A stretch of DNA of 64,000 nt from NCBI GenBank assembly GCA_024681775.1, contig JAILAF010000031.1, positions 1 to 64,000 of the forward strand. Direction: 5' to 3'. The translations under genes and the position numbers were made by a program. This DNA is from Lachnospiraceae bacterium. GTDB lineage: Bacteria; Bacillota; Clostridia; Lachnospirales; Lachnospiraceae. Below are positions 2,688-27,498 of the stretch, in pieces. Position 1 is the stretch's first letter. Each line of letters opens with the position of its first letter. The notes beneath the pieces were generated by a model, which was not told where the DNA came from, ran no database searches, and saw only the letters and a list, made by a program, of their open reading frames with translations.

Positions 2688-2688
2688 C

Positions 2689-3657
2689 TTATGCTCCCAA
2701 TGAATCAATGATCTCGAGGATCTTTTTGTCTTGTTCAAATGTGTACCGTGCGGGTACATGATTCAAGACGATGTCAAAGAATTGACGTATCTCGTTTTTG
2801 TAAGCGTTCTCCACAATGAATGCTCTGTACCCGTCTTTGTGCTCGGCCGCTTCTTTTAATGTGACATTCACAAGTTCTTTCGTAACCGGATCATATTCAT
2901 GGATATGATCCGGGGTTCCGTCCCAGGAAATATAGGCATTCTCTGCATAGGCTTCCAGCTTTCTGACTGCTACGGGAGAAACGACATCCACAACAAGAAT
3001 ACCTTTGTTTCCGTTCTTATGATCGATCTTGATCAGGAAATTATCATGGAAATCAATATCGAGATCTGTCATTTTATCGGATGCAGCGTGAGCGGAAGTG
3101 ATTTCTCCGAAGGAGTCGTTAAGCCAAGGAAGTTCAATGGCCAGTATCTCGCGACAACCGTTTGTCCGCTTATCCCCGATAAAGAAATCTTTGTAGGTTT
3201 CCCAAGGATGCCAATCGGGAAGATACTGTCCAATATGATAGATATAATTCCACCGTTTTTTGGAACTGATTCTGGAACCGATGTATTGTATTTCTTCACG
3301 GTAGAGAAACGTGGAAGACAGGAACAGAGTTACTTCTTTTTCTTTAGCGAGCAGAATGTTTTCATCATAGCCGTCATATACAAGGTTCAGCTCGGTAAAG
3401 ACATGCCATCCCCTTGACAGGCAATCCTTTATGAGTGCCGAATGGGACAGGGGAGAGGTACAGACAAAGGCGCAGTCAACCTGTATATCAAGGGAATCCA
3501 AAGAAGAAAAGCATGAAATGGAGAACAACGCTTCGGACTCTGTTCTGCGGTCTTCCCGAGCGTCGATTCCGATGATCGTGTATTCAGGAAACAATTCCTT
3601 TATCAGACGGATCCGCCGTTTGCCCATGGATCCCAATCCAATTACAACGATATTCAC
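2689..3657 (-). CDS. Gfo/Idh/MocA family oxidoreductase
   Basis: MNIVVIGLGSMGKRRIRLIKE Rossmann start; tandem with another Gfo/Idh gene. Confidence 0.8.
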   Translation of the reverse strand: MNIVVIGLGSMGKRRIRLIKELFPEYTIIGIDAREDRRTESEALFSISCFSSLDSLDIQVDCAFVCTSPLSHSALIKDCLSRGWHVFTELNLVYDGYDENILLAKEKEVTLFLSSTFLYREEIQYIGSRISSKKRWNYIYHIGQYLPDWHPWETYKDFFIGDKRTNGCREILAIELPWLNDSFGEITSAHAASDKMTDLDIDFHDNFLIKIDHKNGNKGILVVDVVSPVAVRKLEAYAENAYISWDGTPDHIHEYDPVTKELVNVTLKEAAEHKDGYRAFIVENAYKNEIRQFFDIVLNHVPARYTFEQDKKILEIIDSLGA

Positions 3658-3672
3658 GTGAAAAGCGCCTCC

Positions 3673-4830
3673 TTACACTTCCAGATCATAGAATTTTTTC
3701 TTAAGATCTATGTTTCCGGAAAAAACTGTTTTTATTGTCGTTTCAGAAATAAGCTCAGCAGCGTGCCCATCACCGTAGGGGGTTCTGACTTTTTGACATA
3801 ATGATTTGTGATCTTCAGACAATGCTCTGTTGATCGCTTCAATAATGGCCTTACTTGATGGAGCACAGTTGATAGTGCTTTCTGACTGCAATCTTCCTCT
3901 TTGCCGGTCTCCGATGTTTACAGTGGGAATATGAAAGGCCGGAGCCTCTATGATACCACTGGAGGAATTTCCAAGGACAAACTCGGAGTACTTCATCAGG
4001 GAAAGGTATCGATGAACACCAAGAGAAGCATGTACATGGAGATTTTTAACTTCCTGTTCGGCAGCATCAAGAAGCGCGTTGATCCTGGCACCACCGAGAT
4101 CAGCATTTGACTTCGTTACGATAAATTCTATGGCGGGAAAAGCACTGACAGCATCCAGGAAATTACGGATCAACTCGTCGATATCAGAATCATCCAGCGT
4201 AACGGGATGATACGTACAAATTGCATATCTGCAATCTGACAAACCAATGCTTTCAAGGGCTTGCTCTCTGGTCATATCTGCTGCGGACAGAATATTGTCA
4301 ATGCTGGTCGATCCAAAATTGAAAACACGGGACGGATCTTCGCCAAGTTGGATCACACGTTTTTTGCTTATTTCGTTTGTGACAAAATGCAGATAGCTGA
4401 TCTTAGAAATGCAATGGCGAATCCATTCGTCCCAGGCACCTTCTGTAGTATCTCCTCCACAAAGGTGGAATACGGGAGTTTTGGTGTTTCCTGCGGCAAT
4501 GGCGATTGCAAGGGTTTCATATCGATCTCCGAGAAGAAGAACAGCGTCGTACCGCTCCTTTACAAACAGCGTGGTAAACTTTTCCAAACAATCTGCTTGA
4601 TTTTCAGAGATGTTTAACTCTGACCCCGACAAAATGCTAATAGCCACTTTGTGGTCTATGCGCTCTTTTATTTCATTGACTGTCAGACCGTATTCTTCTG
4701 ACAGGTGAGTACCGGTAACGATAAGCTCTACCCGCAGATCACCCGATTCCTGTTTTCGTAGTTCTCGGATCACAGGTGATAATAGCCCATATTCTGCCCT
4801 TGTTGCGGTGATAACGGCAATTTTCTTCAT
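3673..4830 (-). CDS. neuC: UDP-N-acetylglucosamine / N,N'-diacetylbacillosamine 2-epimerase (hydrolysing), NeuC/LegG-like
   Basis: MKKIAVITATRAEYGLLSPVIRE, LLGDRYETLAIAIAA, GNSSSGIIEAP motifs. Confidence 0.93.
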   Translation of the reverse strand: MKKIAVITATRAEYGLLSPVIRELRKQESGDLRVELIVTGTHLSEEYGLTVNEIKERIDHKVAISILSGSELNISENQADCLEKFTTLFVKERYDAVLLLGDRYETLAIAIAAGNTKTPVFHLCGGDTTEGAWDEWIRHCISKISYLHFVTNEISKKRVIQLGEDPSRVFNFGSTSIDNILSAADMTREQALESIGLSDCRYAICTYHPVTLDDSDIDELIRNFLDAVSAFPAIEFIVTKSNADLGGARINALLDAAEQEVKNLHVHASLGVHRYLSLMKYSEFVLGNSSSGIIEAPAFHIPTVNIGDRQRGRLQSESTINCAPSSKAIIEAINRALSEDHKSLCQKVRTPYGDGHAAELISETTIKTVFSGNIDLKKKFYDLEV

Positions 4831-5819
4831 AATTCAATCAACTCATCTTCGCAAAAATCTCGCACGGCTCTTGTGCCAAGCACTTCATTCCATCGCATGG
4901 GGCTGATCCCGTTCCCGGGGCGCTTTACGGTTAAGTTTTCTGTTGATAACAGTTCACCAGCCTTAATATTTCTTTTGGCAATAATGCTTTTCCTGGCAAC
5001 AGAGAGGTTTTTTTGTTCAGAAGGAGACGGAGTTTTGATGCCGGAGCCCAGGGCTTTTTCTATGTGTCTGATATTTGAGACCATTTGCGCAAGTTCTTCG
5101 GGTTCCAAACTGGCCTTGTGATCGGGCCCTTCCATTTCCCTGCTAAGTGTAAAGTGCTTTTCGATTATGGAAGCCCCGAGTGCCACTGCAGCTACAGGCA
5201 CCTCAATTCCTTTCGTGTGGTCAGAATAACCTACTTCCAGGCAAAAGGCATCCCGCATGGTCTGCATCGCTCTTAAGTTTACATCTTCAAACGGAGTTGG
5301 ATACTCGGTATTACAATGTAACAGCGTGATCTCTCCTGATCCGTTTTCTCGAAGCACCTTAATCGCTGTATCGATCTCAGACATTTTGCACATTCCGGTC
5401 GACATGACGACAGGTTTAGATGTTTTTGCCAATTCCACAAGGTAGGGGTAATTCGTGATCTCGCCTGAAGGAACCTTCCAAAAGGGCATATGGAGTTCGC
5501 TCAGGAAATGAATACTGTCCATGTCAAAAGGAGTGGACAAAAAGCAGATCCCAATCTCGTCACAGTACTTCTTGAGTTTTATGAATTCTTCATATGAAAG
5601 CTCCAGTTTCTTCAGCATGTCTGCTTGAGTGCCCTGTCCAGTGGCGTTTTTCTGGTAATCCGCTTTCTGAGCACTCTTTGAAACCAGATTCTCTGATTTG
5701 AAAGTCTGAAACTTAATGCAATCAACGCCGGCCTTTTTTGCTGCGTCGACCATTTTACAAGCTAATTCCAAGCTTCCGTTATGATTTACGCCTGCTTCGG
5801 CAATGATAAATACACTCAT
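4827..5819 (-). CDS. neuB: N-acetylneuraminate/legionaminate synthase (NeuB/LegI-like) with C-terminal SAF domain
   Basis: FIIAEAGVNHNGSLELACKMVDAAKKAGVDCIKFQTFK; GYSDHTKGIEVPVAAVALGASIIEKHFTL; SAF-like C-term. Confidence 0.96.
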   Translation of the reverse strand: MSVFIIAEAGVNHNGSLELACKMVDAAKKAGVDCIKFQTFKSENLVSKSAQKADYQKNATGQGTQADMLKKLELSYEEFIKLKKYCDEIGICFLSTPFDMDSIHFLSELHMPFWKVPSGEITNYPYLVELAKTSKPVVMSTGMCKMSEIDTAIKVLRENGSGEITLLHCNTEYPTPFEDVNLRAMQTMRDAFCLEVGYSDHTKGIEVPVAAVALGASIIEKHFTLSREMEGPDHKASLEPEELAQMVSNIRHIEKALGSGIKTPSPSEQKNLSVARKSIIAKRNIKAGELLSTENLTVKRPGNGISPMRWNEVLGTRAVRDFCEDELIEL

Positions 5820-9429: not shown

Positions 9430-10545
9430 ATGTTTTATTGTAAAAAATGTGTAATGCCTAATACTCGACCTGGAATTTCTTTTAATTCGGAAGGGGTATG
9501 CTCTGCTTGTCAGTCATATGAGAGAAGAAAAACCATCGATTGGGATGCTCGATGGAAGGAGTTTGAGGAGATATGTGATAAGTACCGTGGAATGAATGGG
9601 GATGGGCCTGATTGCGCAATTGCTGTATCAGGAGGAAAAGACTCGCACTATCAGGTTCATTTGATGAAGAATGTAATGCATATGAACCCTATACTGTTTT
9701 CTGTAGAAGATAACTTTCCTATGACAGAGGCAGGAAAACATAATCTAAAAAATATTTCCGAGGAATTCGGATGCCCGATCATCAGTTTGAAACCGGATAT
9801 CGAAGCCCAAAAAAAATTAATGCGATACATGTTTGAAACATATGGGAAACCCACGTGGTACATTGACAGATTGATCTACACATACCCTCTTCTTATGGCA
9901 GTTAAGTTTAATACGCCGCTTCTTGTTTATGGCGAAAACGTGAGTTATGAATACGGAGGGGCAGATGCCAAGGAGACATATTCAGCAAAAGAACAACTGT
10001 GCAATGGTGTGGCAATTGGGATAGATGAGAAAGAATTGATCGAGGGAGCAGGCGTTGATGTTCAGGACCTTTACTTGACCAGAGCTCCTCGGGAAGAGGA
10101 ACTGGCAGCGCTGGATCCAATCTATATATCATATTTTACGCAGTGGAACAGTTTCAAAAATTATGAATTTGCCAGAAAACACGGGTTCCATGATCTTTCG
10201 CACGAATGGAATCGGACGCATCACGTAGAGAACTTTGATCAAATCGATAGCCGGGCATATTTGGTTCATTCATGGATGAAATATCCGAAATTTGGTCATG
10301 CTTCTGCAACGGACTATGCTGCTCGAATGGTACGATACGGTTATATAACGCGAGATCAGGCAGTACAGATGGTGAGAGATCATGACGGAAATTTGGATCC
10401 GTTATGCGTCAGGGATTTTTGCGATTTTTGCGGATATTCCGAATCTGAATTCTGGCAGATTATTGATAGTCTTTACAATACGGAACTGTTTGAAAAAGAC
10501 AATTCCGGTAAATGGGTGCTAAAGAATCCGGTTTGGAATGAGTGA
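9430..10545 (+). CDS. N-acetyl sugar amidotransferase (WbpG/PseA/PtmG family)
   Basis: CKKCVMPNTRPGISFNSEGVCSACQSYE zinc-type Cys motif; AIAVSGGKDSHYQVHLMK PP-loop. Confidence 0.93.
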   Translation: MFYCKKCVMPNTRPGISFNSEGVCSACQSYERRKTIDWDARWKEFEEICDKYRGMNGDGPDCAIAVSGGKDSHYQVHLMKNVMHMNPILFSVEDNFPMTEAGKHNLKNISEEFGCPIISLKPDIEAQKKLMRYMFETYGKPTWYIDRLIYTYPLLMAVKFNTPLLVYGENVSYEYGGADAKETYSAKEQLCNGVAIGIDEKELIEGAGVDVQDLYLTRAPREEELAALDPIYISYFTQWNSFKNYEFARKHGFHDLSHEWNRTHHVENFDQIDSRAYLVHSWMKYPKFGHASATDYAARMVRYGYITRDQAVQMVRDHDGNLDPLCVRDFCDFCGYSESEFWQIIDSLYNTELFEKDNSGKWVLKNPVWNE

Positions 10546-13897: not shown

Positions 13898-15022
13898 ATG
13901 AAAACTATGGGAAAACAAATCAATGTTACTCGTTCATCAATGCCTCCTTATGAAGAATTCATTGAGGCCATAAAGCCCCTATGGGAAAGTCACTGGCTCA
14001 CCAATATGGGGAAATATCATAATGAACTTCAGGAACGATTGAAGGAATATCTTGGAGTGGAAGGCCTCTCGCTGTTGGTCAATGGACATATGGGGCTTGA
14101 GTTGGGACTGCAGGCCTTTGGTTTTCCGGAAGGCGGAGAGGTCATAACGACTCCTTTTACATTTATTTCGACAACACATGCCATAGTGCGAAATAAATTA
14201 AGACCGGTATTCTGTGATGTGAAGCCGAAAGACGGGACTATTGATGAAACAAAAATTGAAGAGCTGATCACAGAAAAAACTGTAGCGATTCTGCCCGTTC
14301 ATGTATACGGAAACCTGTGTAATACGGAAGCAATAGAAAGAATTGCCAGAGATTATAATCTTAAAGTTATTTATGATGCCGCGCATGCATTTGGTGAAAG
14401 TGTTAACGGGCGAGGCATCGGAAGCTTTGGCGATGCTTCCGTGTTCAGCTTTCACGCAACCAAAGTATTCAATACCATCGAGGGCGGGGCGGTTGCATTT
14501 CATGAGCACCAGATCTATGAAAAACTGTACAATCTGAAGAATTTTGGAATCAGAGGAGAGTCTCTGGTCACTGAAGTGGGCGCAAATGCAAAAATGAATG
14601 AAGTCTGCGCAATTATGGGGCTTTGTAACCTTGAGCATTTGGAAGATGCCATTGCATCGAGAAAAAAAGTATTTGACACGTATGTCGCAGAGCTGGCGGA
14701 CGTTGAAGGAATTGATATTTTTAGAATTGTTAAGGACGGAGAAGTGAACAATTATGCTTACTTCCCGATTCTCGTTAATGATCCATATCCTCTCAGTCGA
14801 GACGAATTATATCTTTCGATGCATGAAAAGGATATTTTTCCCCGCAAGTATTTTTATCCGATCACATCCGATCAGAATTGCTTTAGAAATAAATATAAAA
14901 ATCTAAATCTTTCTGTCGCAAGGGAACTGTCGGAGCATGTTCTTACGTTACCAATCTATGAGGGACTTATGGAAGAAGACCAGAGAAGAGTAATAAATTC
15001 TATCAAAACTACGGGCAAATAA
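13898..15022 (+). CDS. DegT/DnrJ/EryC1/StrS-family sugar aminotransferase
   Basis: TTPFTFISTTHAI, YDAAHAFGESVNGRGIGSFGDASVFSFHATKVFNTIEGGA PLP-site motif. Confidence 0.93.
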   Translation: MKTMGKQINVTRSSMPPYEEFIEAIKPLWESHWLTNMGKYHNELQERLKEYLGVEGLSLLVNGHMGLELGLQAFGFPEGGEVITTPFTFISTTHAIVRNKLRPVFCDVKPKDGTIDETKIEELITEKTVAILPVHVYGNLCNTEAIERIARDYNLKVIYDAAHAFGESVNGRGIGSFGDASVFSFHATKVFNTIEGGAVAFHEHQIYEKLYNLKNFGIRGESLVTEVGANAKMNEVCAIMGLCNLEHLEDAIASRKKVFDTYVAELADVEGIDIFRIVKDGEVNNYAYFPILVNDPYPLSRDELYLSMHEKDIFPRKYFYPITSDQNCFRNKYKNLNLSVARELSEHVLTLPIYEGLMEEDQRRVINSIKTTGK

Positions 15023-15043: not shown

Positions 15044-16972
15044 ATGTGTGCTATTTGTGGGTTCTTTAGCTTTAGCGGACCGATGTATGGCGAATATGAA
15101 AAAGTAAGGGAATCAATGCGTTCCATGTTGCATCGTGGACCGGATGATCAAGGGGCGGTATCGATAAATGTTGATAACGGTATTTATGGCATTAATCTGG
15201 AGCAGAGTGATTATCCAGAAAAATGTGATGGCATTTTTGGGTTTAACAGATTGAGTATAAAGGATTTAAGCTCTGAAGGGCACCAGCCGATGGTGTCTGA
15301 CGACAATAATGTCGCACTGATATTTAATGGTGAAATCTATAATGATAGCGAGATAAGAGATGAGTTGCTAAAAGCAGGCTGGGTGTTCAGAGGACATTCA
15401 GATACTGAGGTGTTGCTCAAATGCTATTTGGAGTACGGATTCGATGTGACTGTCAGAAAACTGAACGGTATGTTTGGGTTCGCAATTGTAGACCTTCGTT
15501 TAAATCGGCTTTTTATTTCCAGGGATAGATTTGGTATCAAACCAATATATTACTGTATTCAAAAAGGGATGATTTCTTTTGCCTCGGAGTTGAAAGGACT
15601 CATCCCTTTTTCGAATGTTACTCGAGAAATAGATATAGATGCTTATAACTCGAGAATAATGTTTTCAAGACTAAGTGACAGAGTGTTGTTAAAAAATGTT
15701 CAAATGCTCGACCCTGGGTGTTTTTTATGTGCTTCCTTTGATGGAGTTATCAATCAAGGAAAATATTGGGATATCGATAAATACATCAGAGTAAACGACA
15801 GATTTAATAATATTGAAGAGGCAATAGATGAATTAGATGTTCTTCTTGAAAATGCTGTAAGACGACAAATCGTATCAGATGTTCCTGTGGGGTGCCAGGT
15901 TTCGGGTGGTATTGATTCAACCTTGATTTGCTATTATGCAAATAAAACAGGTGGACAAACTATCAAGGACGGGATTTCGATAGTAGACAGTAGCAAAACA
16001 GGGAAAAATGAAGAATACTATATCGATCAAGTTGGCGAAAGGCTGGAGTTAAATATTCATAAACATTGGATGGATGAGGATTTTTTCTTAAAAAATTTTC
16101 AATATGCATCCTGGTGTAATGATGCTCCACTATATCAACCATATTTTGTTTCTTTCTATTTGCTAGCAAAAGAAGCAAAAAAATATGTGACTGTTCTAAT
16201 GAGTGGAGAGGGAAGCGATGAAACAGCCGGAGGGTATGGAAGATTTTCTGCCGGATTGTTCTTCCCCTTTATACAAAAAAATATTGAGGTTTCCAGTACG
16301 ATAAAGAAATATGACAGTTTCGCGGAATATGAGATCATGTCAGATTCCACAATCACGGGTTTTTGTACGAAGGGATATCGGGGGGCTAATGATTTAATAG
16401 CAACAGAAGTAGACAGGTTTAACAGACTTAGCGGTTCTGATTTCACAAAGCAACTGAAATATGAGACTCTTTATCGCCTCCCTGAAGCTTGCCTTCGGCA
16501 GGACAAAATGACTATGGCTGCAACGATAGAAAATCGTGTGCCACTGCTGGACAATGAGGTTGTGGATTTCGTTATGACGTTGCCGGAAAGTTACTTAATC
16601 CGGTTCGCCGATACATCACCATGTAATCTTGGACCAAACCCTTTCAGATGGGTTGAGGGAAAATACATATATAAGGAACTGCTGAAAAGAAAGTTCGGGC
16701 ATGAATTTGTATATCGAAAAAAAGGCATTATGGTCTTCGATGAAAAGAAAATACTAAGTGGAGATGGATTCAAAAATTTATATTTTGAGATCATTTATCC
16801 ATCAATGCGGGATAGAGATATGGTTGATTATATATATATCAATAATCTCTATGAAAGAATAGATTCGCTTAGTAAAAATGAGGTTAACCTTTTTTGGAGA
16901 TGTATAGGCCTTGAACTATGGACGATGCAGTTTATAGATGGAAAATACATCCCAACATCTATACCTCAATAA
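15044..16972 (+). CDS. Asparagine synthase (glutamine-hydrolysing)-like amidotransferase
   Basis: MCAICGFFSF (Cys2 nucleophile), MLHRGPDDQG, GCQVSGGIDSTL PP-loop. Confidence 0.94.
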   Translation: MCAICGFFSFSGPMYGEYEKVRESMRSMLHRGPDDQGAVSINVDNGIYGINLEQSDYPEKCDGIFGFNRLSIKDLSSEGHQPMVSDDNNVALIFNGEIYNDSEIRDELLKAGWVFRGHSDTEVLLKCYLEYGFDVTVRKLNGMFGFAIVDLRLNRLFISRDRFGIKPIYYCIQKGMISFASELKGLIPFSNVTREIDIDAYNSRIMFSRLSDRVLLKNVQMLDPGCFLCASFDGVINQGKYWDIDKYIRVNDRFNNIEEAIDELDVLLENAVRRQIVSDVPVGCQVSGGIDSTLICYYANKTGGQTIKDGISIVDSSKTGKNEEYYIDQVGERLELNIHKHWMDEDFFLKNFQYASWCNDAPLYQPYFVSFYLLAKEAKKYVTVLMSGEGSDETAGGYGRFSAGLFFPFIQKNIEVSSTIKKYDSFAEYEIMSDSTITGFCTKGYRGANDLIATEVDRFNRLSGSDFTKQLKYETLYRLPEACLRQDKMTMAATIENRVPLLDNEVVDFVMTLPESYLIRFADTSPCNLGPNPFRWVEGKYIYKELLKRKFGHEFVYRKKGIMVFDEKKILSGDGFKNLYFEIIYPSMRDRDMVDYIYINNLYERIDSLSKNEVNLFWRCIGLELWTMQFIDGKYIPTSIPQ

Positions 16973-17036: not shown

Positions 17037-18254
17037 ATGAAAAAAGCGTTAGTACTTGCCGGAGGGTTACCGCAAATCGAACTGATAAATGAGCTAAAGC
17101 AACGAGGGTATTATACCATATTGGCTGATTATTCAGTGAGACCGCTTGCAGAAAAGTATGCTGACAAGTTTTACAGAGAGAGCACGCTGGACATACCCAA
17201 AATTACAGAAATAGCTCTGGAAGAAAAGGCGGATATGATTATTTCCTGTTGTACAGATCAAGCCCTTTCTACTGTTGCCGTGGTGGCCGATAAACTGGGA
17301 TTGCCATGTTATATTGACGAACAAACCGGTTGGAACGTCACAAATAAAAGAGAGATGAAACGCATTTTTAAAGAAAATGGTATTCCGACTGCCCCGTTTG
17401 TTATTACAGATACTGAAGACGTAAATGTTGAAATGAAATATCCGTTGGTTGTAAAACCCGTAGATTGCAACAGCTCTAAAGGGGTTGTAAAGGTCTATAG
17501 GGCAGAAGAGTTAAAAGAAGCAATAAAAGGTAGCTTAGCCTATAGCAGGGATAACAAGGCGATTATTGAGGAGTTTGTAGATGGAGAAGAGATATCTGTA
17601 GACGCTTTTGTTACAGATGGAAAGGTAGAAATTCTATGTACATCCTGTAGCGAAAAAATAAATAATGACAGGGGCTTTGTCATATGGAAAGGGATATCAC
17701 CGGCTACGGACGATGCAAATATAATACATAAAATTTATAGTATTATATGTAAAATAGTTGATGCGTTTAAGTTGAATAATTGTCCCATGCTTGTACAAAT
17801 GATAAAGCATGGAGAGGAATTGAGTGTAATCGAGTTCAGCGCCAGAACAGGGGGGTGTCTAAAGTACAGAATGATTGAAAAGGCATGTGGCTTCGATGTT
17901 ATTAAAGCTACGGTTGACCTTTTTGAAAGCAGAAAGGTAAACATCAATCTGATTGAGCAGAAAAAAATGATATCGGATGAGTTTCTTTATTGCAATGCCG
18001 GAGTGTTTGACCATATTGAAGGAGCAGACATCTGTAAAAAAAATGGATGGATCACTGAATTCTACGAGTTAAAAAGAAAAGGAACAGAATTTCATCATGT
18101 AGGGTGTAGCGGGGATAGGGTGGCTGCAATATTGATAGAGGCCGAGAATTATGATGAGTATGTGGATAAACATAATAAGGTGGCAGCATCGCTAAAAGTA
18201 ATCGATGTTTCGGGAAACGATATCATGAGACACGATCTTTATCCTGTTTTATAA
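17037..18254 (+). CDS. ATP-grasp family ligase
   Basis: KKALVLAGGLPQIELINELKQRGY; YPLVVKPVDCNSSKGVVKV; IEEFVDGEEISVDAFV. Confidence 0.9.
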   Translation: MKKALVLAGGLPQIELINELKQRGYYTILADYSVRPLAEKYADKFYRESTLDIPKITEIALEEKADMIISCCTDQALSTVAVVADKLGLPCYIDEQTGWNVTNKREMKRIFKENGIPTAPFVITDTEDVNVEMKYPLVVKPVDCNSSKGVVKVYRAEELKEAIKGSLAYSRDNKAIIEEFVDGEEISVDAFVTDGKVEILCTSCSEKINNDRGFVIWKGISPATDDANIIHKIYSIICKIVDAFKLNNCPMLVQMIKHGEELSVIEFSARTGGCLKYRMIEKACGFDVIKATVDLFESRKVNINLIEQKKMISDEFLYCNAGVFDHIEGADICKKNGWITEFYELKRKGTEFHHVGCSGDRVAAILIEAENYDEYVDKHNKVAASLKVIDVSGNDIMRHDLYPVL

Positions 18255-18265
18255 AGGGAATTGTT

Positions 18266-19618
18266 ATGTCAAATGTAGCTAAGGATTTTGTAAAGGAAAT
18301 AGATCAAGTATTTAACAACGATTTACCTCTTAGAGTTAAAAGCAGGGCGAAGTATGCTTTTTTGGATTATATTTGCGTGACTTTGGCCGGAGCGGAATAT
18401 AACAGATCCAAACTGGAAAAATACCTGGCACTGTCAGATGGTGAAGAGGCAAGATATTGCATTATAGGCATAGAAAGCAAAGCATCTCTGAAAGATGCGG
18501 TGTTTTTAAATGGATTAAGTGCGCACTCGCTTGATTATGATGATGGAACAAATGCAGGAATTATTCATTTGGGTTCTCCGATTTTTTCCGTTTTACTCGG
18601 GATTGCGGAAAAATACGATATCGGTTTGGATAGATTTTATCGCGCTGTAGTGGCAGGATATGAAGCGTCGTTCTCTATGGCATATGCTATGCAGCCGATT
18701 CACAAAAAAAAGGGGTATCACGCAACTGGAACCTGTGGAATTATCGGGGCTACATTGGCAATATGTTATGCGTTGAATTACACTGAAAAGGAAAAATTTA
18801 ATGCGTTCAGTACGGCGTGCATCTCAGCTTCAGGAATGCTTAAGGTACTAGATGAGAGTTCGGAGCTTAAGCCATACAATGTGGCAAAGACAGCTCTTAT
18901 GGCACTAGTGTCTGCACAGATGGCAAAAGCTGGATTTGAAGGACCGGAAGATCCCTTGGGCGGAGCAAGAGGGTATTTCGCCATGATGACAGGAAATAAG
19001 GATTTAATACCAACAAAGCCATGCCTTGACAGTATTTCTGCTATTGAACGAGCATACATAAAGCCATATGCTGCGTGTAGATACTGCCATCCGTCTATCG
19101 AATGTTCAATAAAAATCAGGCAACAGTTGCTGGAAAAAGAAGAAATTAGGAGCATTAACAGAATAGAAGTAAGGACATATTCTTTGGCAATAAATGGTCA
19201 CGATCATATACACATAACAAATGCCTCATCTGCAAAGATGAGCATTCCTTATAGTGTATGTGTTGCACTGCTTTTTGGAAAAGCAGGTTTAGGTGAATAT
19301 AGTGACAAACTGATTGATAATACAGAAATTAATGAGTTGATAAAGAAAGTGGAAGTTATTGCAGATGACGAGATGGATGCACACTTTCCCGAAAAACAGA
19401 TAGCCTCTGTAAGAGTGCTGACGCGAAATGAGATATATGAAGAATCGGTGGAGTATCCGAAAGGAGAAATGCAAAACCCTTTTTCTGAGGATGAGTTTGA
19501 ACATAGATTTTTTGAAATGTGCAGATATGCAGGCAAATCTGAGGAAGTAATTGCTCTTCTGTATGATGCAGTGTTGGCTGAAAACAAGAGTGTAAAAGAA
19601 ATAGTGAGTATCCTATAA
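18266..19618 (+). CDS. MmgE/PrpD family protein (2-methylcitrate dehydratase-like)
   Basis: LDYICVTLAGAEYNRS; NGLSAHSLDYDDGTNAGIIHLGSPIF; PYAACRYCHPSIECSI. Confidence 0.88.
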   Translation: MSNVAKDFVKEIDQVFNNDLPLRVKSRAKYAFLDYICVTLAGAEYNRSKLEKYLALSDGEEARYCIIGIESKASLKDAVFLNGLSAHSLDYDDGTNAGIIHLGSPIFSVLLGIAEKYDIGLDRFYRAVVAGYEASFSMAYAMQPIHKKKGYHATGTCGIIGATLAICYALNYTEKEKFNAFSTACISASGMLKVLDESSELKPYNVAKTALMALVSAQMAKAGFEGPEDPLGGARGYFAMMTGNKDLIPTKPCLDSISAIERAYIKPYAACRYCHPSIECSIKIRQQLLEKEEIRSINRIEVRTYSLAINGHDHIHITNASSAKMSIPYSVCVALLFGKAGLGEYSDKLIDNTEINELIKKVEVIADDEMDAHFPEKQIASVRVLTRNEIYEESVEYPKGEMQNPFSEDEFEHRFFEMCRYAGKSEEVIALLYDAVLAENKSVKEIVSIL

Positions 19619-19631
19619 GTGAGGTGTTTGA

Positions 19632-20603
19632 GTGAAACTAATACTTGGTACGATGACATTTGGAGAGTCCGTATTTTATCCGGATGTTGAACAGTACATT
19701 AATGCATTTTTGAACGCCGGATATGACGAACTGGACACAGCCTATGTATACAATGACGGAAATAGTGAACGGCTGCTGGGAGAGGTGTTACCCGGGATTA
19801 ATCAATCATGCAAGATTTCTACGAAAATAAATCCAAGGATTAGTGGAAAACTGGATGCAGATGCTGTATATAAGCAGTTAACTGAAAGCTTGGAGCGAAT
19901 GAAGAGAACGTCAGTAGAAACGGTATTTCTTCATTTCCCTGATCCGCAGACTCCCGTAGAAAATGCGCTGGGAGCTATGGCAGATATGCATGATCAAGGG
20001 AAGTTTAGGGAATTGGGGTTAAGTAATTTTCCGGCTTGGATGGTGGCAGATGTATGGCATATCTGCGATAGACATGGGTGGGTTCTCCCCACGGTTTATG
20101 AGGGGGTATACAACCCTTTGACAAGAGGTGCAGAAAGTGAGCTGAATGACTGCTTAAATGCTTTTGACCTTCGTTTCTATGCATATAATCCGACAATGGG
20201 TGGATTGCTCACCGGGAAGTATACGAGCGTAGACGATACTCCTGAGGACGGACGATTCACTCACCGCCCCGGGTATCTGGAGAAGTATTGGAAGAAATGT
20301 AATTTTGACGCTTTGGATGTAATCAGAAAAGCTATCAAACCACATGGAATAACGATGGTTGAAGCAACTTATCGATGGTTGGCGTATCATTCCATGCTTG
20401 ACAGCGGTCGTGGAGATGCGATCTTGATTGGGGCTAGTAAGCTCAATCATCTGCTTCAGAATATGGAATCGGTAAACGCCGGGCCGTTACCGGATGATGT
20501 GATAGAGGCGATGAATGTGGCGTGGAAGATTTGTCGAGGAGAAAGCCGTGATTACTTCACCCTTTACAAAGGCAAGGGAAGTGTGGGAGGCGAGAAGAAA
20601 TAA
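19632..20603 (+). CDS. Aldo/keto reductase (AKR7-like)
   Basis: GTG start; LILGTMTFGESVF, ELDTAYVYNDGNSERLLGE, GLSNFPAWMVADVWHICDRHGW. Confidence 0.9.
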   Translation: MKLILGTMTFGESVFYPDVEQYINAFLNAGYDELDTAYVYNDGNSERLLGEVLPGINQSCKISTKINPRISGKLDADAVYKQLTESLERMKRTSVETVFLHFPDPQTPVENALGAMADMHDQGKFRELGLSNFPAWMVADVWHICDRHGWVLPTVYEGVYNPLTRGAESELNDCLNAFDLRFYAYNPTMGGLLTGKYTSVDDTPEDGRFTHRPGYLEKYWKKCNFDALDVIRKAIKPHGITMVEATYRWLAYHSMLDSGRGDAILIGASKLNHLLQNMESVNAGPLPDDVIEAMNVAWKICRGESRDYFTLYKGKGSVGGEKK

Positions 20604-21743
20604 TTGTTAGACCAGGAGAAAGTATTTAAATCGTTAGCAAATCATGGGGTTTCGTTTTTTGCGGGTGTTCCGGATAGCTATTTAAATGGGTTTTGTAATT
20701 ATGCTCTGGAAAATTGTGGGGACCGAAATGTGATAACGGCAAACGAAGGGAATGCTGTTGCGCTGGCTGTGGGGCATTATTTGGCCACAAAGGAGATTCC
20801 GCTTGTTTATATGCAGAACAGCGGAGAAGGAAACACTGTAAATCCTATTGCAAGCCTTGCAGATAAGAATGTGTATGCCGTTCCGATGCTTCTTCTTATT
20901 GGTTGGCGTGGGCAGGGGGACACGGAACCAAATCACCCGCAGCATAAGCTCCAAGGGGAAATAACAACTTCTTTGCTCGATATTCTTCACATTCCATATT
21001 CTGTAATTGAAGACAATGATGAAAAATTCGAGGGAATTGTTGATAGGGCAGTCAAGTATTGCACAGAGACCAGGGGCATATACGCTTTTGTCGCTCCGAA
21101 GGGTGTTATGGCATCGAATGAGAAAGAAAACCTTGTGGATGATACCTATCCTATGAGCAGAGAAGAAGTAATTGAAGTGTTCTTGGATACGCTTCCGCCG
21201 GACACTATCTATATTGCAACTACAGGTCGTACGTCTCGGGAACTGTTTTTCCTTAGAGAAAGAAGGGGGGAGACGAAGGAACATGACTTTCTGAATGTGG
21301 GGGCTATGGGACATGCCAGTTCGATTGCTCTCGGGATTGCTTTATCAAAACCCGGTAGAAAAGTGGTTGCTCTGGATGGTGACAGTTCAGCCATTATGCA
21401 TATGGGAGCAATGACGATGGTGAGCAAGATCTCCGCTCCCAACTTTATTCATGCAATTCTCAACAATGGTGCTCATGAATCTGTTGGCGGACAGCCCTCT
21501 GCAGGGTACAAGCTGAATTGGACAAAGATTGCTGAGGCATGTGGATATGAAACAATCGGCGGGGCTGTGGGAACTAAAGAAGAACTGAAAGCGGCGATTA
21601 ATTCGCTAAATGACTGTGGACATGCTTCATTTATCGACTGCCGCATCCACAAGGGTTTGACACACAAACTGCCACCAATCATTTTTGACCACAGGGCGTC
21701 TGTAGATGCATTAATGGATGATTTGAGGCGTAACGGGGGCTGA
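20604..21743 (+). CDS. ThDP-dependent decarboxylase, phosphonopyruvate/sulfopyruvate decarboxylase-like
   Basis: TTG start abutting the AKR stop; VYMQNSGEGNTVNPIASLADKNVYAVPMLLLIGWRGQGDTEPNHPQHKLQGE; VVALDGDSSAIMHMGAM ThDP motif, NNGAHESVGGQPS. Confidence 0.9.
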   Translation: MLDQEKVFKSLANHGVSFFAGVPDSYLNGFCNYALENCGDRNVITANEGNAVALAVGHYLATKEIPLVYMQNSGEGNTVNPIASLADKNVYAVPMLLLIGWRGQGDTEPNHPQHKLQGEITTSLLDILHIPYSVIEDNDEKFEGIVDRAVKYCTETRGIYAFVAPKGVMASNEKENLVDDTYPMSREEVIEVFLDTLPPDTIYIATTGRTSRELFFLRERRGETKEHDFLNVGAMGHASSIALGIALSKPGRKVVALDGDSSAIMHMGAMTMVSKISAPNFIHAILNNGAHESVGGQPSAGYKLNWTKIAEACGYETIGGAVGTKEELKAAINSLNDCGHASFIDCRIHKGLTHKLPPIIFDHRASVDALMDDLRRNGG

Positions 21744-21774
21744 AAGCAGTACGATTCGGAGAAAGGACATAGAT

Positions 21775-22677
21775 ATGAATAGTATGGATCAAACGAGAGA
21801 ATTTTTACGTTCTATTGGCTTGCCGGGAGGAGACGCATATGATCTTCCCACAAGCCACAAGTGCTTTGCTGATGGGGGACAGTATCGATTTGAAGTCCCG
21901 GGGATTCAAGGGCCTAAAGTGATGCAGGCACTCTTAGAAGCTATGGACAGTTATGGCCTTTATCTTCATCGCGTCACACAGACGCAAGGCATTATGTGCT
22001 TGACGGATGAGGATATTACAAAGATGGTAGAACTTGCTCATAAATGGGAAACGGACTTGATCCTTGCGATTGGCCCCCGTGCCACCACGGATACTTCTGC
22101 TTCCGTTCACACTGAGGAGGGAGTGAGAATGGGGTACCGTCTTCGTGGACAAGAGCAGATCGTCAGAGCTATTGAAGATGTTAAGCGTGCAGTTCGTCTT
22201 GGTTGTCGCGGGTTCCTGGTTTACGATGAAGGCTGTTTGTGGGTGCTGAATGAAATGCGTAAAGCAGGTGAGATACCGGGCGATTGTCATTTTAAGGTTT
22301 CTGCTCATGCCGGACATGGAAATCCTTGTTCTGCAAGGCTTTTGGAAACGATTGGAGCGGATTCGATCAATCCCGTGCGTGACATTCAGCTTCAAATGCT
22401 GGGAGCGTTACGTCAGGCGGTAAATTGTCCCATTGATATTCACACTGAAAATCCTAAGTCCACGGGTGGATTTATCCGGCACTATGAAGTTCCGGAGATG
22501 ATACGTGTAGCCGCTCCAATCTATCTTAAGACCGGTGGTTCTGTTGCAGCCACCCATTCTTGGGACAGTACAGAAGAAGATGCTAAGAAAAGGGCGAAGC
22601 AGTGTGCGCTTGTTAAGCGTGTGATCGATGAGTATTATCCCGAAGCTAAATGGAGCCCCAAGGGTAGTTTGCTGTAG
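21775..22677 (+). CDS. Uncharacterised probable TIM-barrel enzyme
   Basis: 300 aa; GCRGFLVYDEGCLWVLNEMRK, FKVSAHAGHGNPCSARLLETIGADSINPVRDIQLQML, CPIDIHTENPKSTGGF; family not recognised. Confidence 0.7.
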   Translation: MNSMDQTREFLRSIGLPGGDAYDLPTSHKCFADGGQYRFEVPGIQGPKVMQALLEAMDSYGLYLHRVTQTQGIMCLTDEDITKMVELAHKWETDLILAIGPRATTDTSASVHTEEGVRMGYRLRGQEQIVRAIEDVKRAVRLGCRGFLVYDEGCLWVLNEMRKAGEIPGDCHFKVSAHAGHGNPCSARLLETIGADSINPVRDIQLQMLGALRQAVNCPIDIHTENPKSTGGFIRHYEVPEMIRVAAPIYLKTGGSVAATHSWDSTEEDAKKRAKQCALVKRVIDEYYPEAKWSPKGSLL

Positions 22678-22736
22678 TAGGCGCTTGAATCAAACTTCTT
22701 AGGATGCGTTCATCATAGGAGAAAGAAGCAAAGAAT

Positions 22737-23882
22737 ATGAGACACCATATGTACAACCCGGATTTTAAGTTTGTGATTGAACCAGAGCATTTTGATAAAC
22801 ATACGGATCGGGAATTATTACAGTATTGTCTTGGGGCTACGATGTACATGCCGGGGTTTAAAGATTTTACGCCTAAGATTCTTTCCAATACTATGCCTGG
22901 TCTGACAAGCATGGTTCTTTGCTTTGAGGATGCTTGCCCGGAAGAAAAGCTTCCCGAGGCTATGGAGAATGTTCATAGTTTGCTGACGACTGTTACTGAG
23001 TCTGTTGATAATGGGACCTTAGATGGGGATAAAGTCCCTTTGATTTTTGTGCGTGTTCGTAATTTGGAACAATTCAAGGAGTTTGGCGAAAAACTGACCC
23101 AACAGGAGGTGCAATCCCTGTGCGGAATCAATTTTCCCAAGTTCAACGCAGAAAATGGGTATGAATATTTTTCGTATTTGAAGGACTTGAATGTTCGCTT
23201 CGGAGAAATAATCTATGGAATGCCGATTATAGAGGATAAAGAAGTCGCATACAAGGAGAGCCGTTTACAGGAACTGACAGGAATCAAGAAAATTCTTGAT
23301 AAGTATAAAGACCTGGTTCTTCAGGTTCGAGTTGGAGCCACCGATTTTTCTTCTGTTTTTGGCGTGCGCCGTGGTGTTGGGTATTCGGTGTATGATATCA
23401 TGACTGTTCGTGAATGCTTGAGTGATATAATTAACATGTTCGGGCGTGATAATGACTATGTTGTTTCCGGCCCGGTTTGGGAGTATTTCCGCGCCCCGAA
23501 GGAACTGATGTTTGAGGAATTGCCTCACTATGGGATAGAGGACTATTTGGTAAAGCGGCAGCCCCTGGTAAATAATGAAGTTGATGGACTGCTCCGAGAG
23601 GTTATCCTTGATAAGGCAAATGGCTTTGTTGGGCGTACGGTGATTCACCCTACACACGTGAAGTTTGTGAACGCAATGATGGCTGTGACGAAGGAAGAGT
23701 ATGATGACGCCTGTCAGATTCTTGGCGCAGGTGGTGGTGTGGTCAAAGGGGCCGGGGGAAATAAGATGAACGAAATTAAACCTCATACCAATTGGGCAAA
23801 GAAGATTTTTAACCGAGCAAGAGCTTATGGAGTAATACAGGATGAAAGCGGGCATGTGAAGCTTTTTGCAGTGAATGATTGA
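22737..23882 (+). CDS. HpcH/HpaI aldolase/citrate lyase-like C-C lyase
   Basis: SMVLCFEDACPEEKLPEAMENVHSLL; LVLQVRVGATDFSSVFGVRRG; GRTVIHPTHVKFVNAMMAVTKEEYDDA. Confidence 0.82.
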   Translation: MRHHMYNPDFKFVIEPEHFDKHTDRELLQYCLGATMYMPGFKDFTPKILSNTMPGLTSMVLCFEDACPEEKLPEAMENVHSLLTTVTESVDNGTLDGDKVPLIFVRVRNLEQFKEFGEKLTQQEVQSLCGINFPKFNAENGYEYFSYLKDLNVRFGEIIYGMPIIEDKEVAYKESRLQELTGIKKILDKYKDLVLQVRVGATDFSSVFGVRRGVGYSVYDIMTVRECLSDIINMFGRDNDYVVSGPVWEYFRAPKELMFEELPHYGIEDYLVKRQPLVNNEVDGLLREVILDKANGFVGRTVIHPTHVKFVNAMMAVTKEEYDDACQILGAGGGVVKGAGGNKMNEIKPHTNWAKKIFNRARAYGVIQDESGHVKLFAVND

Positions 23883-23928
23883 CATGATTCACAATGATAG
23901 TTGATGAATTCTTTCAAGGTATGCACAT

Positions 23929-24438
23929 ATGATTGAACTGAGAACACCGATTAGCGAAAAAGATGTGGCGAGACTGCAGGTTGGAGATACGTTAGAAATC
24001 TCCGGTTACATTCTCTGTGGTCGGGATGCTGTTCTTCCGAAAGTGCTGAAGATGATAGAGGAAGGTAAGACGGAGGATCTGGGAATTGACTTGCATGGGC
24101 AGGTTATCTTTCACACCGCGGTCAGTCCGGCCGGCGTGGGCCCTACTTCAAGCAATAAGGTGGAAATTGAAAGCAGTTTTGAACCTTTAAGTATGGCCGG
24201 TATCAAAATACACCTGGGAAAAGGGAAGCTATGCAGGGAAACTATTGAGGCACTTGATAGGTGTCGTGCGATATACGCCGTAATCCCGCCTGTGACTGCA
24301 TTGTTGGGATCAAAAACAATTGAGGAGAGAGTTATTGCGTTCCCTGAGCTAGGAATGGAGGCCCTTCATCTCATCAAAGTTGATAGGTATCCGGCAATTG
24401 TTGGTGCAGCACACGGGAGGTCTATCTATGAAAGATGA
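23929..24438 (+). CDS. Fumarate hydratase / L(+)-tartrate dehydratase beta-subunit-like protein
   Basis: LQVGDTLEISGYILCGRDAVLPKV; HTAVSPAGVGPTSSNKVE class I fumarase C-domain motifs. Confidence 0.88.
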   Translation: MIELRTPISEKDVARLQVGDTLEISGYILCGRDAVLPKVLKMIEEGKTEDLGIDLHGQVIFHTAVSPAGVGPTSSNKVEIESSFEPLSMAGIKIHLGKGKLCRETIEALDRCRAIYAVIPPVTALLGSKTIEERVIAFPELGMEALHLIKVDRYPAIVGAAHGRSIYER

Positions 24439-25285
24439 TGTGGTCAAGCTTGTCAGAGATACTCTTGTGGAGGCGGGGTCTACATTTCGCTCTGATAAGA
24501 AAGAAGCATATAAGAGAGCAATCAATTTGGAGACTGATGAGAAAGCCAAGTGGGTTATGGAAACGATTCTTTTTAATGCCGAAGTTGCAGAGAAAAGTCA
24601 TGGCCCGCTTTGTGATGATACAGGAATTCCGCATGTTGTTTTAGAAGTTGGTCCGGACTGCCCGGTAACAGGTCGGCTGTTAGGAGAGATCAGGCAGGGG
24701 ATTGCCGAAGGACTAAGAAAACTTCCGGGCAGACCGATGGGGATCATGGGCGATGATAGTCACCGGATTGATCAATCCGGCGGGTTGAATCCTGATAGTG
24801 CCGGAGTTGAGCCGGCACCAATACTTATTCGTCCTACAACGGATAACGTGATCCGGCTCCATATCCTTATGCTTGGAGGGGGCCCCGCAATTAGGGCGAA
24901 AACGTTTCGTGTTTTTCATAAGCACAATACCCAGGTTGTTCTTGATGAAATTGTGAGATGGGCAACGGAAGGCGTGGAGGAACTTGGTTGCACGCCTTGC
25001 ACACTGGCTGTTGGTGTAGGACGAAGTCATTTCGAAGCAACAAGTATGATGCTTCAAGCTCAGGTGGACGGCCGGTATGATATTCAATCAGAGATGGAAC
25101 AAGAGATAACAAAGAGAGTAAATGAAGCGCATATTGGACCTTTAGGATTGGGGGGAAAAACGACTGTACTTGCCACCTTTATGAAGGTTGGACCACAGAG
25201 AGCGAGTGGGGTTCGCATTGTGTGTGTTCGCCCCGCCTGTTGTTTTGAACCCAGAATTGCCACGGTGGAGCTTAGGCAAACGTAA
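24428..25285 (+). CDS. Fumarate hydratase / L(+)-tartrate dehydratase alpha-subunit-like protein
   Basis: PLCDDTGIPHVVLEVG; LGGGPAIRAKTFRVFH; LGCTPCTLAVGVGRSHFEATSMMLQAQ; GLGGKTTVLATFMKVGPQRASGVRIVCVRPACCFEPR. Start MKDDVVK at 24428, overlapping the beta subunit by 11 nt. Confidence 0.88.
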   Translation: MKDDVVKLVRDTLVEAGSTFRSDKKEAYKRAINLETDEKAKWVMETILFNAEVAEKSHGPLCDDTGIPHVVLEVGPDCPVTGRLLGEIRQGIAEGLRKLPGRPMGIMGDDSHRIDQSGGLNPDSAGVEPAPILIRPTTDNVIRLHILMLGGGPAIRAKTFRVFHKHNTQVVLDEIVRWATEGVEELGCTPCTLAVGVGRSHFEATSMMLQAQVDGRYDIQSEMEQEITKRVNEAHIGPLGLGGKTTVLATFMKVGPQRASGVRIVCVRPACCFEPRIATVELRQT

Positions 25286-25431
25286 TAGGTGTTGGGAGTA
25301 TTTCTGATAATATAGAATTGACATGAATTGGGAATCAATTGCATGGGAAAGAGCATTACAAGTGACGCTGATGAGGGAAATAACTATTTCCCAAAGTGAT
25401 TTCAATCTGTTGGAGGAAGGGGCCGCATAAT

Positions 25432-27498
25432 ATGAATGGTTCAGAAACGAAAATGATCACTATTTTGGTTAATTATCTTGCGAAACTGAAAGATGACTTG
25501 GAGGGAGATATTCATTTGGAAGATGCCGCACAACGCGTTGGGGCAATTCCGCCCATTCTTGATAAGATAAGTGATAACATCGTAAGAAGTGTGCTGGAAC
25601 CATATAAAGAATATTTTGATGGTGTGAGGCTCTTCTACGATAGATGCAGAAATGTTGAGTTCCTTGACGCCAATCTTCAGGATGCGTATGATTCGATTAT
25701 TTTACTGATAAAGTGTTTGGGGGAAATAATAGAGGCGTTGCGTGATAGAGAAGGAAGATGTCCTTGTTGTGGAGCAAGGGTAGTATATCTACCTCTTCCT
25801 TCATATTATCAGGAAATGAAAGAAAAATATGGAATTACGTATAATGCTCATGCTGAAACGCTAAATAAGGAAAAGTACCTATGTCCTTCATGCCAAAGTT
25901 CTGATAGGGATCGAATGATTGTTTCGTTTTTGGAAAAGATCGGACTTTCCGAATCACCGGAAGGGACAAAAGTTTTACAGATTGCGCCGGCACATAGTAT
26001 AGACAATTGGATAAAGGAGTGGTGTCCAAACATAGTCTATGATACAACCGATCTATTTATGGATGGAGTAACGTTCCGAACAGATATCCAAGACATGAAA
26101 AATGTTGAAAACGGGACGTATGATCTGATTATTTGCTCGCATGTTTTGGAGCATGTGCAAGATGATAGAAAAGCTTTATCAGAATTAAAACGGGTACTGA
26201 AAGAGGATGGGGAAATTGTTTTTCTTGTCCCGGTGGACTTGAATAGAGATGATATAGATGAAGAATGGGGGCTGTCCGAAGAAGAAAATTGGAAACGCTT
26301 TGGGCAAGGGGATCATTGCAGAGCGTATTCAAAAGAAGGCTTGATTGAAAGATTACGGGAGCAGTTTTTTGTTCATCAGTTAGGAAAAGAGTACTTTGGT
26401 GAGACTGTTTTCGAACAGTGTGGGTTAGCGGATACAAGTATTCTGTATGTATTATCTAAGGATGAGAATGTAGATCTTCATAAGGGCTGGATTCCGGTGA
26501 TAGATCAAGATTTGTGCCAAAACGGTCCCCTGGTGAGCGTTCTCTTGCCGACATATAATCATGAAAAATATGTGGAAAGAGCAATAGAGAGTGTGCTTAA
26601 CCAAAGCTATAAAAATCTTGAGATACTGGTGGCAGATGATGGGTCTACTGACAGGACTCCGGAGATTTGCAGGAAGTACTCGAAATATTTTGCTAAAGAA
26701 TATTACTTTGAAGAGAACTTAAGAGGCAGAGCTGAATTTCTCGCTACGCAGGCAACAGGGAAGTATGTTGCATTGATGCATTCAGATGATGTGTGGGACA
26801 AAGATAAAATAGCAATTCAAGTGAAAGAATTGGAAGAAAAAGGCGGCATATCTCTCACTTGGGCACTCTGTATTAATGATGATGGAGAAATTGAGAAAAT
26901 ATCCGGCTTTGTACAGAAAAACAGAAGTCGTGATGAATGGTTGCAGTTTTTCTGGGAATACGGGAATTGCATCTGCAATCCTTCGCTGGTAATGCCCAGG
27001 GAATTGTTTATGAAGCGCCAGAAGCACGGATGGTCATGTAAACAATTACCGGATTATTTTAAATGGATTGATTATGTACAGGAGACGGAATTACATATCG
27101 TACAGTATCCGCTTACTCAAATGGGAATTCATTACAGTGGATATAATGCAAATGATAGCGCTCCGACGGTAGAGAACAAGTATAGGCACCTGCTGGAAGA
27201 TGGAATCCACTGGATGACTGTTCTTCAGGACATGGAAGACGATATTTTCCTTTCGGCATTTGGCAAATACTTTAGAAAACAAGACGCATCGACCAAGGAA
27301 GAATTGATGTGTGAAAAGTATTTTCTCATGCTTGATTCGGATTATGTGGCAAGGCAGGGGGCTGCAATAAACTATATGTCCATAAATTTCCTGCAACTAA
27401 GGGACTGCCTTAAAGAAAAATATAACTATCTCAGAAATGATTTTTATGCGGATGAAGTGAAAAAAGGTTTCATTCCACTGTTGTTGTCACAAAATTAG
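25432..27498 (+). CDS. Fusion protein: CxxC-containing SAM-dependent methyltransferase plus GT2 glycosyltransferase
   Basis: CPCCGARVVYLP...CPSCQSSDRDRM; YDLIICSHVLEHVQDDRKALSELKRVLKEDGEIVFLVP; then VSVLLPTYNHEKYVERAIESVLNQSYKNLEILVADDGSTDRTPEI. SD ggagg before ATG 25432. Confidence 0.88.
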   Translation: MNGSETKMITILVNYLAKLKDDLEGDIHLEDAAQRVGAIPPILDKISDNIVRSVLEPYKEYFDGVRLFYDRCRNVEFLDANLQDAYDSIILLIKCLGEIIEALRDREGRCPCCGARVVYLPLPSYYQEMKEKYGITYNAHAETLNKEKYLCPSCQSSDRDRMIVSFLEKIGLSESPEGTKVLQIAPAHSIDNWIKEWCPNIVYDTTDLFMDGVTFRTDIQDMKNVENGTYDLIICSHVLEHVQDDRKALSELKRVLKEDGEIVFLVPVDLNRDDIDEEWGLSEEENWKRFGQGDHCRAYSKEGLIERLREQFFVHQLGKEYFGETVFEQCGLADTSILYVLSKDENVDLHKGWIPVIDQDLCQNGPLVSVLLPTYNHEKYVERAIESVLNQSYKNLEILVADDGSTDRTPEICRKYSKYFAKEYYFEENLRGRAEFLATQATGKYVALMHSDDVWDKDKIAIQVKELEEKGGISLTWALCINDDGEIEKISGFVQKNRSRDEWLQFFWEYGNCICNPSLVMPRELFMKRQKHGWSCKQLPDYFKWIDYVQETELHIVQYPLTQMGIHYSGYNANDSAPTVENKYRHLLEDGIHWMTVLQDMEDDIFLSAFGKYFRKQDASTKEELMCEKYFLMLDSDYVARQGAAINYMSINFLQLRDCLKEKYNYLRNDFYADEVKKGFIPLLLSQN

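Follow-up and report, generated by a model that had tools for sequence, protein, structure and literature searches.

The stretch analyzed here, called the window, comprises the first 64,000 nucleotides of contig JAILAF010000031.1 (our contig C81) of a Lachnospiraceae bacterium (assembly GCA_024681775.1, a 2.9 Mb draft that is 92% complete), and it contains an eight-gene cassette of carboxylic acid enzymes embedded in a surface-glycan island. The eight predicted genes all lie on the + strand between positions 17037 and 25285. An open reading frame (ORF) check and Pfam/NCBIfam profile searches agreed with the coordinates and family names in the initial annotation of this DNA. The first gene (17037–18254) encodes an ATP-grasp carboxylate-amine ligase of the L-amino-acid-ligase/PylC type (ATP-grasp_4 and LAL_C2 traces). 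It is followed by an MmgE/PrpD-superfamily enzyme with MmgE_PrpD N and C domains (PrpD, 18266–19618), an aldo-keto reductase (AKR, 19632–20603, Aldo_ket_red), a thiamine diphosphate (ThDP) decarboxylase (Ppd, 20604–21743, TIGR03297), and a 300-aa protein of an unnamed family with a triosephosphate isomerase (TIM) barrel (21775–22677). The last three genes encode a C-C bond lyase (CCL, 22737–23882) and both subunits of a class I fumarase/tartrate-dehydratase-like enzyme, β (TtdB, 23929–24438, PF05683) and α (TtdA, 24428–25285, PF05681). CCL had been called an HpcH/HpaI C-C lyase; it is a C-C lyase, but not a classic HpcH/HpaI one, as it matches the separate citrate-lyase-like family PF15617 with 381 bits over 340 residues. 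The AKR gene ends at 20603, immediately before the Ppd start at 20604. TtdA likely begins at 24428 and not at the TTG at 24380, and the TtdB and TtdA genes overlap.

The arrangement of these genes is widely conserved. When 84,980 species genomes were scanned for the TIM-barrel protein, the best-conserved cassette member, 561 relatives emerged, the best 80 of which are 85–92% identical over the full length. Loci were chosen by likeness to the window protein, and the frequencies reported below describe this near family; genes in each locus were called with a codon-usage score, and a few antisense shadow ORFs persist. Among the best 80 loci, TtdA and TtdB are present in 71, CCL in 71, Ppd in 60, and AKR in 59. 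The order PrpD-AKR-Ppd-TIM-CCL-TtdB-TtdA recurs in ~60 of these 80 species-level loci with median gaps of 10, 0, 36, 45, 36, and −11 bases. The spacing is not accidental, because it is kept across ~60 other loci; the abutting AKR and Ppd genes and the overlapping hydratase subunits, both singled out in the initial annotation, are rules of the family, and conserved order and near-abutting genes bear out the notion of a single cassette. Hosts are mostly rumen or gut Clostridia, with one locus each labelled Spirochaetales, Victivallales, and Kiritimatiellae (labels of metagenome-assembled genomes). Among the carriers in culture are Acetatifactor muris DSM 23669, Hungatella effluvii, Sporofaciens musculi, Sarcina sp. 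DSM 11001, and two isolates of Lachnospiraceae. The TIM-barrel protein was found in 0 of 30 same-genus genomes and in none of all 58 relatives searched, and 10 others among the 391 genomes examined from the class have a match to it (35–90% identity over most of the length). High identity across families, together with absence from congeners, points to horizontal spread of the cassette.

The TIM-barrel protein matches no Pfam or NCBIfam family and has no close PDB match by sequence. An AlphaFold model (mean predicted local distance difference test score 91) folds as a TIM barrel, and Foldseek searches with two AlphaFold models retrieved generic barrels only, at template modeling (TM) scores of ~0.45–0.55, headed by class II aldolases, U32, and ketopantoate hydroxymethyltransferase. 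The invariant residues E40, D151, E152, K174, N199, D203, D221, R235, and K252, with no His or Cys among them, suggest an acid-lysine active site. Identity as a peptidase U32 was considered and discarded: the protein gives no PF01136 match even at an E-value of 1, shares a 96-residue stretch at 30% identity with a U32-like protein of 895 aa, and superimposes on the U32 protein Mk0906 with a TM score of 0.5. Separately, distant relatives of the TIM-barrel protein (30–38% identity) often adjoin a PanB-like ketopantoate hydroxymethyltransferase (L139–L141, L145, L146, L150, L151, L154, L157, and L026), a family present in 13 fetched loci of such relatives; locus L026 combines this pairing with formate-tetrahydrofolate ligase, FolD, and tripartite ATP-independent periplasmic (TRAP) transporter genes.

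One part of the cassette is an exchangeable tail. Across 84 non-redundant loci, 60 carry Ppd and AKR without a D-2-hydroxyacid dehydrogenase (PGDH), as in the window (tail A, class A), 15 carry PGDH without the Ppd-AKR pair (tail B, class B), one has both, and eight have neither, mostly on short contigs. This mutual exclusivity is significant (Fisher p 5e-10, kinship ignored), and the proposal that decarboxylase and reductase act as a pair on a putative 2-oxo acid is supported. Locus L019, which has Ppd without AKR, departs from the pattern. On the TIM-barrel tree, the tail changes ~10 times, although few branches are strongly supported and these force only 2 changes. TIM-barrel protein and TtdAB are near-constant between the tail classes. 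Locus L054 holds both solutions, a PGDH-PrpD pair and a separate PrpD-AKR-Ppd set, arranged around a single TIM-barrel, CCL, and TtdAB set. One PrpD of L054 shares 39% identity with the window PrpD and the other 51%, so the PrpD type goes with the tail. Since the tails are exclusive around a shared core, the simplest reading is that the core makes one 2-oxo acid that serves as a branch point, to be decarboxylated and reduced by tail A or reduced by tail B. Locus L104, where CCL is missing, has an HMGL-like aldolase-family protein (PF00682) and Ldh2 in the operon, which agrees with a C-C bond as the target of CCL. Two different PrpD-like genes, in tandem or nearly so, occur in L057, L084, L091, L096, L099, and L103, and are commonly ~50% and 26% identical to the window PrpD.

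The names that databases give to the cassette enzymes invite readings that fit the rest of the locus poorly. Ppd passes the TIGR03297 equivalog test for phosphonopyruvate decarboxylase, scoring 387 bits against a cut-off of 312.5, and a taurine-containing peptidylamido-glycan is known on one clostridial flagellin (PMC5207245). Both observations would suit a true phosphonopyruvate or sulfopyruvate decarboxylase that furnishes the glycan with 2-hydroxyethylphosphonate, aminoethylphosphonate, isethionate, or taurine. Phosphonate tailoring of glycans by phosphoenolpyruvate (PEP) mutase and Ppd likewise places a Ppd-family decarboxylase in a surface-glycan locus. However, PEP mutase (PF13714) had no match in five cassette genomes, namely the window genome (a 92% complete assembly, where absence is not absolute), Acetatifactor, Sarcina, Sporofaciens, and the L057 genome, and the phosphosulfolactate synthase ComA was found in 0 of 10 cassette genomes, whereas control genomes were positive. 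Moreover, nearly all cassette Ppds replace the GDG of the canonical GDG...NN ThDP motif with GDS, GDC, or GDA, the window copy having GDS. The L035 genome encodes a PEP mutase and a second Ppd with GDG besides its cassette Ppd with GDS. With PEP mutase and ComA not found and the GDS motif in place, the name phosphonopyruvate decarboxylase is probably misleading for the cassette enzyme. A phosphonate or coenzyme-M-type sulfonate pathway, which also leaves CCL, TtdAB, PrpD, and the PGDH alternative unexplained, is highly improbable, and we rejected it.

A comparable mismatch applies to the fumarase-like and PrpD-like enzymes. In an alignment with canonical subunits, TtdA keeps all three cluster cysteines (C62, C188, and C272), while the canonical β motif GPTTSxRMD and α motif KNTGDNTPA are replaced (by GPTSSNKxE and other residues) in more than 95% of 73–75 cassette copies. 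Besides the cassette enzyme, the window genome encodes a canonical class I fumarase, which scores 404 bits, compared with 167 for the cassette TtdA. The PrpD-like protein falls far below the PrpD equivalog cut-offs (41 versus 575 bits and 33 versus 458), and its nearest solved relatives are a B. subtilis IRG1-like protein, iminodisuccinate epimerase, and cis-aconitate decarboxylase. It retains, by alignment, the Asp, His, and Lys positions known as catalytic in cis-aconitate decarboxylase. Given the low PrpD scores and the IRG1-like and epimerase relatives, dehydration would be one of several activities open to this protein. PrpD, citrate-lyase-like, and fumarase-like proteins are all families of central metabolism, which could make the cassette core a variant citramalate/2-methylcitrate-type fragment of central metabolism (propionate, aconitate, or anaplerotic) that travels on a mobile island and has no dedicated tie to glycans. 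Such a fragment would duplicate a canonical fumarase, contain rewritten TtdAB substrate motifs, be built around a protein absent from 30 of 30 congeners, and include no coenzyme A (CoA) ligase, CoA transferase, or citrate synthase. We consider it very improbable indeed, and a housekeeping role in the tricarboxylic acid cycle or propionate metabolism was set aside on account of the second fumarase and the altered motifs.

Cassette loci are usually found among surface-glycan genes, in support of the setting described in the initial annotation. Sugar transferase, NeuA/B/C, RmlA/B, flippase, TupA, or GT2 genes lie within 10 kb of the cassette in 43 of the 60 well-covered loci, each of at least 14 kb. 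Overlaps between cassette and sugar-transfer genes are stronger evidence than mere proximity. Specifically, TtdA and a sugar transferase gene are paired in 6 loci with a median gap of −1, the class B arrangement; sugar transferase and ATP-grasp genes are paired in 8 loci with a median gap of −4; and both pairs typically overlap. Also in class B, a third pairing that typically overlaps joins the TIM-barrel gene to an ATP-grasp gene of a sugar-transfer-associated family (4 loci, median gap −4). NeuB was identified by sequence in 8 cassette loci, 7 of them independent, as L017 and L040 are one contig. At about one copy per genome, NeuB would be expected in fewer than 1% of 20-kb windows, giving a rough binomial p of ~1e-8 (8 of 60, kinship ignored). 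The flanks of the window cassette are as originally claimed, with fliC, NeuB/C/A, and glycosyltransferases in the surroundings. Immediately upstream, an AsnB-like glutamine amidotransferase (15044–16972, + strand, profile match) has relatives of 57–60% identity that adjoin the cassette in L064 and L083; downstream, a methyltransferase-glycosyltransferase fusion (25396–27498, + strand, profile match) belongs to the glycan island. The suggested tie to flagellin does not generalize: flagellin genes were not detected close to the cassette in the other loci examined, and flagellin is the window's own setting.

The ATP-grasp protein groups with L-amino-acid ligases and PylC, that is, with carboxylate-amine ligases, and probably amide-links the cassette product to an amino sugar. 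Its gene stands directly before PrpD in 16 loci, with a median gap of 25 bases, and the nearest upstream non-core gene is of the ATP-grasp type in at least 17 of 61 loci, otherwise often being a flippase or other glycan gene. An ATP-grasp gene is present in 33 of the 60 well-covered loci, including 12 of 12 in class B, a recurrence that agrees with the initial annotation but denies the gene an obligatory place in the cassette. The probable source of the acceptor amino sugar is the DegT-type aminotransferase encoded upstream (13898–15022, + strand), whose best full-length match is DesI (293 bits, under the 650 cut-off). Relatives of this DesI-like protein (48–61% identity) recur in nine other cassette loci. 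All ten loci with a close DegT relative, the window included, have an ATP-grasp gene, and DegT, RmlA, and RmlB lie in a row in five of the ten. The window genome encodes RmlB and RmlA on the same contig, making available, with the DegT aminotransferase, the enzymes of an N-acylated amino-sugar pathway of the anthrose/viosamine type. We infer from these gene families that the amide is formed with a 4-amino-4,6-dideoxyhexose.

The anthrose and N-acyl viosamine pathways, in which 4-amino-4,6-dideoxyglucose bears a dedicated hydroxyacyl group, are among the nearest known counterparts. In those systems, the acid is supplied as a CoA or acyl carrier protein thioester and transferred by an acyltransferase. 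The window resembles anthrose and N-acyl viosamine loci in having an amino sugar made by RmlA, RmlB, and DegT that would be N-acylated with an unusual hydroxy acid derived from neighboring genes. It differs on three counts: CoA enzymes do not appear, attachment is tentatively assigned to an ATP-grasp ligase, and the acid-building enzymes are entirely different. Anthrose is a precedent for an acylated amino sugar (PMC9614988). A second precedent is the type B flagellin of C. difficile, which carries a taurine-alanine-glycine peptidylamido group amide-linked to Fuc3N; its fliC locus contains a D-alanine-ligase-like gene, and the terminal group is ascribed to genes for an acyltransferase, a ligase, and an alanine dehydrogenase (PMC5207245). 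Nothing like the PrpD-Ppd-TIM-CCL-TtdAB cassette is described in that locus (PMC5207245). Ter-associated biosynthetic operons share with the cassette both a PF15617 C-C bond lyase and ATP-grasp enzymes, and ATPgrasp_Ter, whose family name (PF15632) derives from these operons, matches 6 of 61 upstream neighbors. We take the PF15617 name to have the same origin. No TerD-family gene was found among the window ORFs scanned with Pfam, and the other cassette enzymes are not known from Ter-associated operons.

Taken together, we favor, with modest confidence, the view that the cassette is mobile, works independently of CoA, and assembles an unusual small hydroxy-carboxylic acid with which surface glycans are decorated. 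In the proposed pathway, CCL, the Fe-S hydro-lyase TtdAB, and the TIM-barrel enzyme would interconvert small di- or tricarboxylic acids to yield a 2-oxo acid. In tail A, the version found in the window, the ThDP decarboxylase would convert this acid to an aldehyde that AKR reduces to an omega-hydroxy acid, while in tail B the D-2-hydroxyacid dehydrogenase would produce a 2-hydroxy acid directly. The tail-matched MmgE/PrpD enzyme may then tailor the product by dehydration, epimerization, or decarboxylation. The ATP-grasp ligase would activate the carboxylate and join it in an amide to an amino sugar, most likely the 4-amino-4,6-dideoxyhexose nucleotide generated by RmlA, RmlB, and the DesI-like aminotransferase. 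The decorated sugar would finally be placed by glycosyltransferases on flagellin in the window and on polysaccharides elsewhere. Gene content, conservation, proximity to glycan genes, the exclusive tails, and the failure to find PEP mutase or ComA are observations; we infer the 2-oxo acid node, the substrates, products, and direction, the role of the TIM-barrel protein, and the amide attachment from the encoded families and their arrangement.

Several observations weigh against this biosynthetic proposal. Glycan islands are hot spots of horizontal transfer, and some of the co-location could be hitch-hiking; the ATP-grasp genes are diverse (20–49% identity), and nearly half of the loci lack one. 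More than one-third of the well-covered class A loci have a DctM permease lacking a substrate-binding protein, often with a LysR gene, and in ~20 loci the permease and a 96-aa membrane protein, again often with LysR, lie directly upstream. An ATP-grasp gene is present in 2 of 17 permease-bearing class A loci, as opposed to 18 of 28 without the permease (p 7e-4). In addition, distant TIM-barrel and TtdAB relatives lie in catabolic-looking operons with citrate-lyase subunits, malic enzyme, Ldh2, and tricarboxylate/TRAP transporters, and operons of distant TIM-barrel relatives (30–73% identity) also hold CitDEF and GlcD-Etf. These features would suit a catabolic or scavenging operon, which would take up a di- or tricarboxylate-like acid originating in the diet or in the glycans of other microbes, split it with CCL, and ferment it, the decarboxylase and reductase disposing of the 2-oxo acid and the glycan neighbors reflecting shared hypervariable regions. 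Most hosts live in the rumen or gut, as this explanation would have it. Set against it are the overlaps of cassette genes with sugar transferase and sugar-transfer ATP-grasp genes, the ATP-grasp gene in all 12 well-covered class B loci, and the glycan genes that persist in 10 of the 17 permease loci. Furthermore, the permease is missing from 40 of the well-covered class A and B loci, and strict glycan genes accompany the cassette in 32 of those 40. Catabolic loci free of glycan genes, which would have undercut the glycan link, were encountered among the distant TIM-barrel relatives (30–73%) but not among near-identical cassettes. On balance, catabolism is unlikely, although it, or scavenging of the same acid, stays a serious rival because permease loci rarely hold an ATP-grasp gene. 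The DctM permease without a binding protein and the 96-aa membrane protein, which has no Pfam match, are found in L033, L073, L086, L089, L091, and ~15 more loci.

A broader form of the biosynthetic proposal, which we advance tentatively as a possibility somewhat short of even, is a CoA-free pathway with a new TIM-barrel family at its center that makes hydroxy acids as interchangeable glycan decorations and is shared across phyla by horizontal transfer, with the tail swap changing the decoration. The enzyme set and the central protein family appear to be undescribed; acyl-precursor pathways for surface-glycan amino sugars are already known. No literature on this exact gene set was found among open-licence papers, which is weak evidence of novelty. 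If the proposal is correct, the surfaces of gut bacteria would bear a widespread, undescribed chemical modification, and the cassette would provide a clean case of a biosynthetic operon with exchangeable final steps. It would also give a role to the highly conserved family of the TIM-barrel protein, which has no Pfam, NCBIfam, or close PDB relative, and the database names phosphonopyruvate decarboxylase, fumarase, and methylcitrate dehydratase would need correcting for cassette genes. Because phage sensitivity and immune recognition are both influenced by surface glycans, a mobile decoration pathway shared among these bacteria would matter ecologically.

The surrounding island has features of its own. 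Its GC content is mostly 37–49% over positions ~1–40000, compared with 50–59% in the housekeeping region at 40000–64000 (rplA, rplJ, rpoB, and rpoC), and the island looks horizontally acquired. Next to fliC, positions 979–5819 encode NeuB, NeuC, a cytidylyltransferase, and two adjacent GFO/IDH/MocA-type reductases, which may constitute an unusual nonulosonic acid branch; a match to the reductase pair (71–72% identity) occurs in L052 only. A WbuX-type N-acetyl sugar amidotransferase (9430–10545; 339.8 bits against a cut-off of 203.2) suggests that the island also makes an acetamidino or related sugar.

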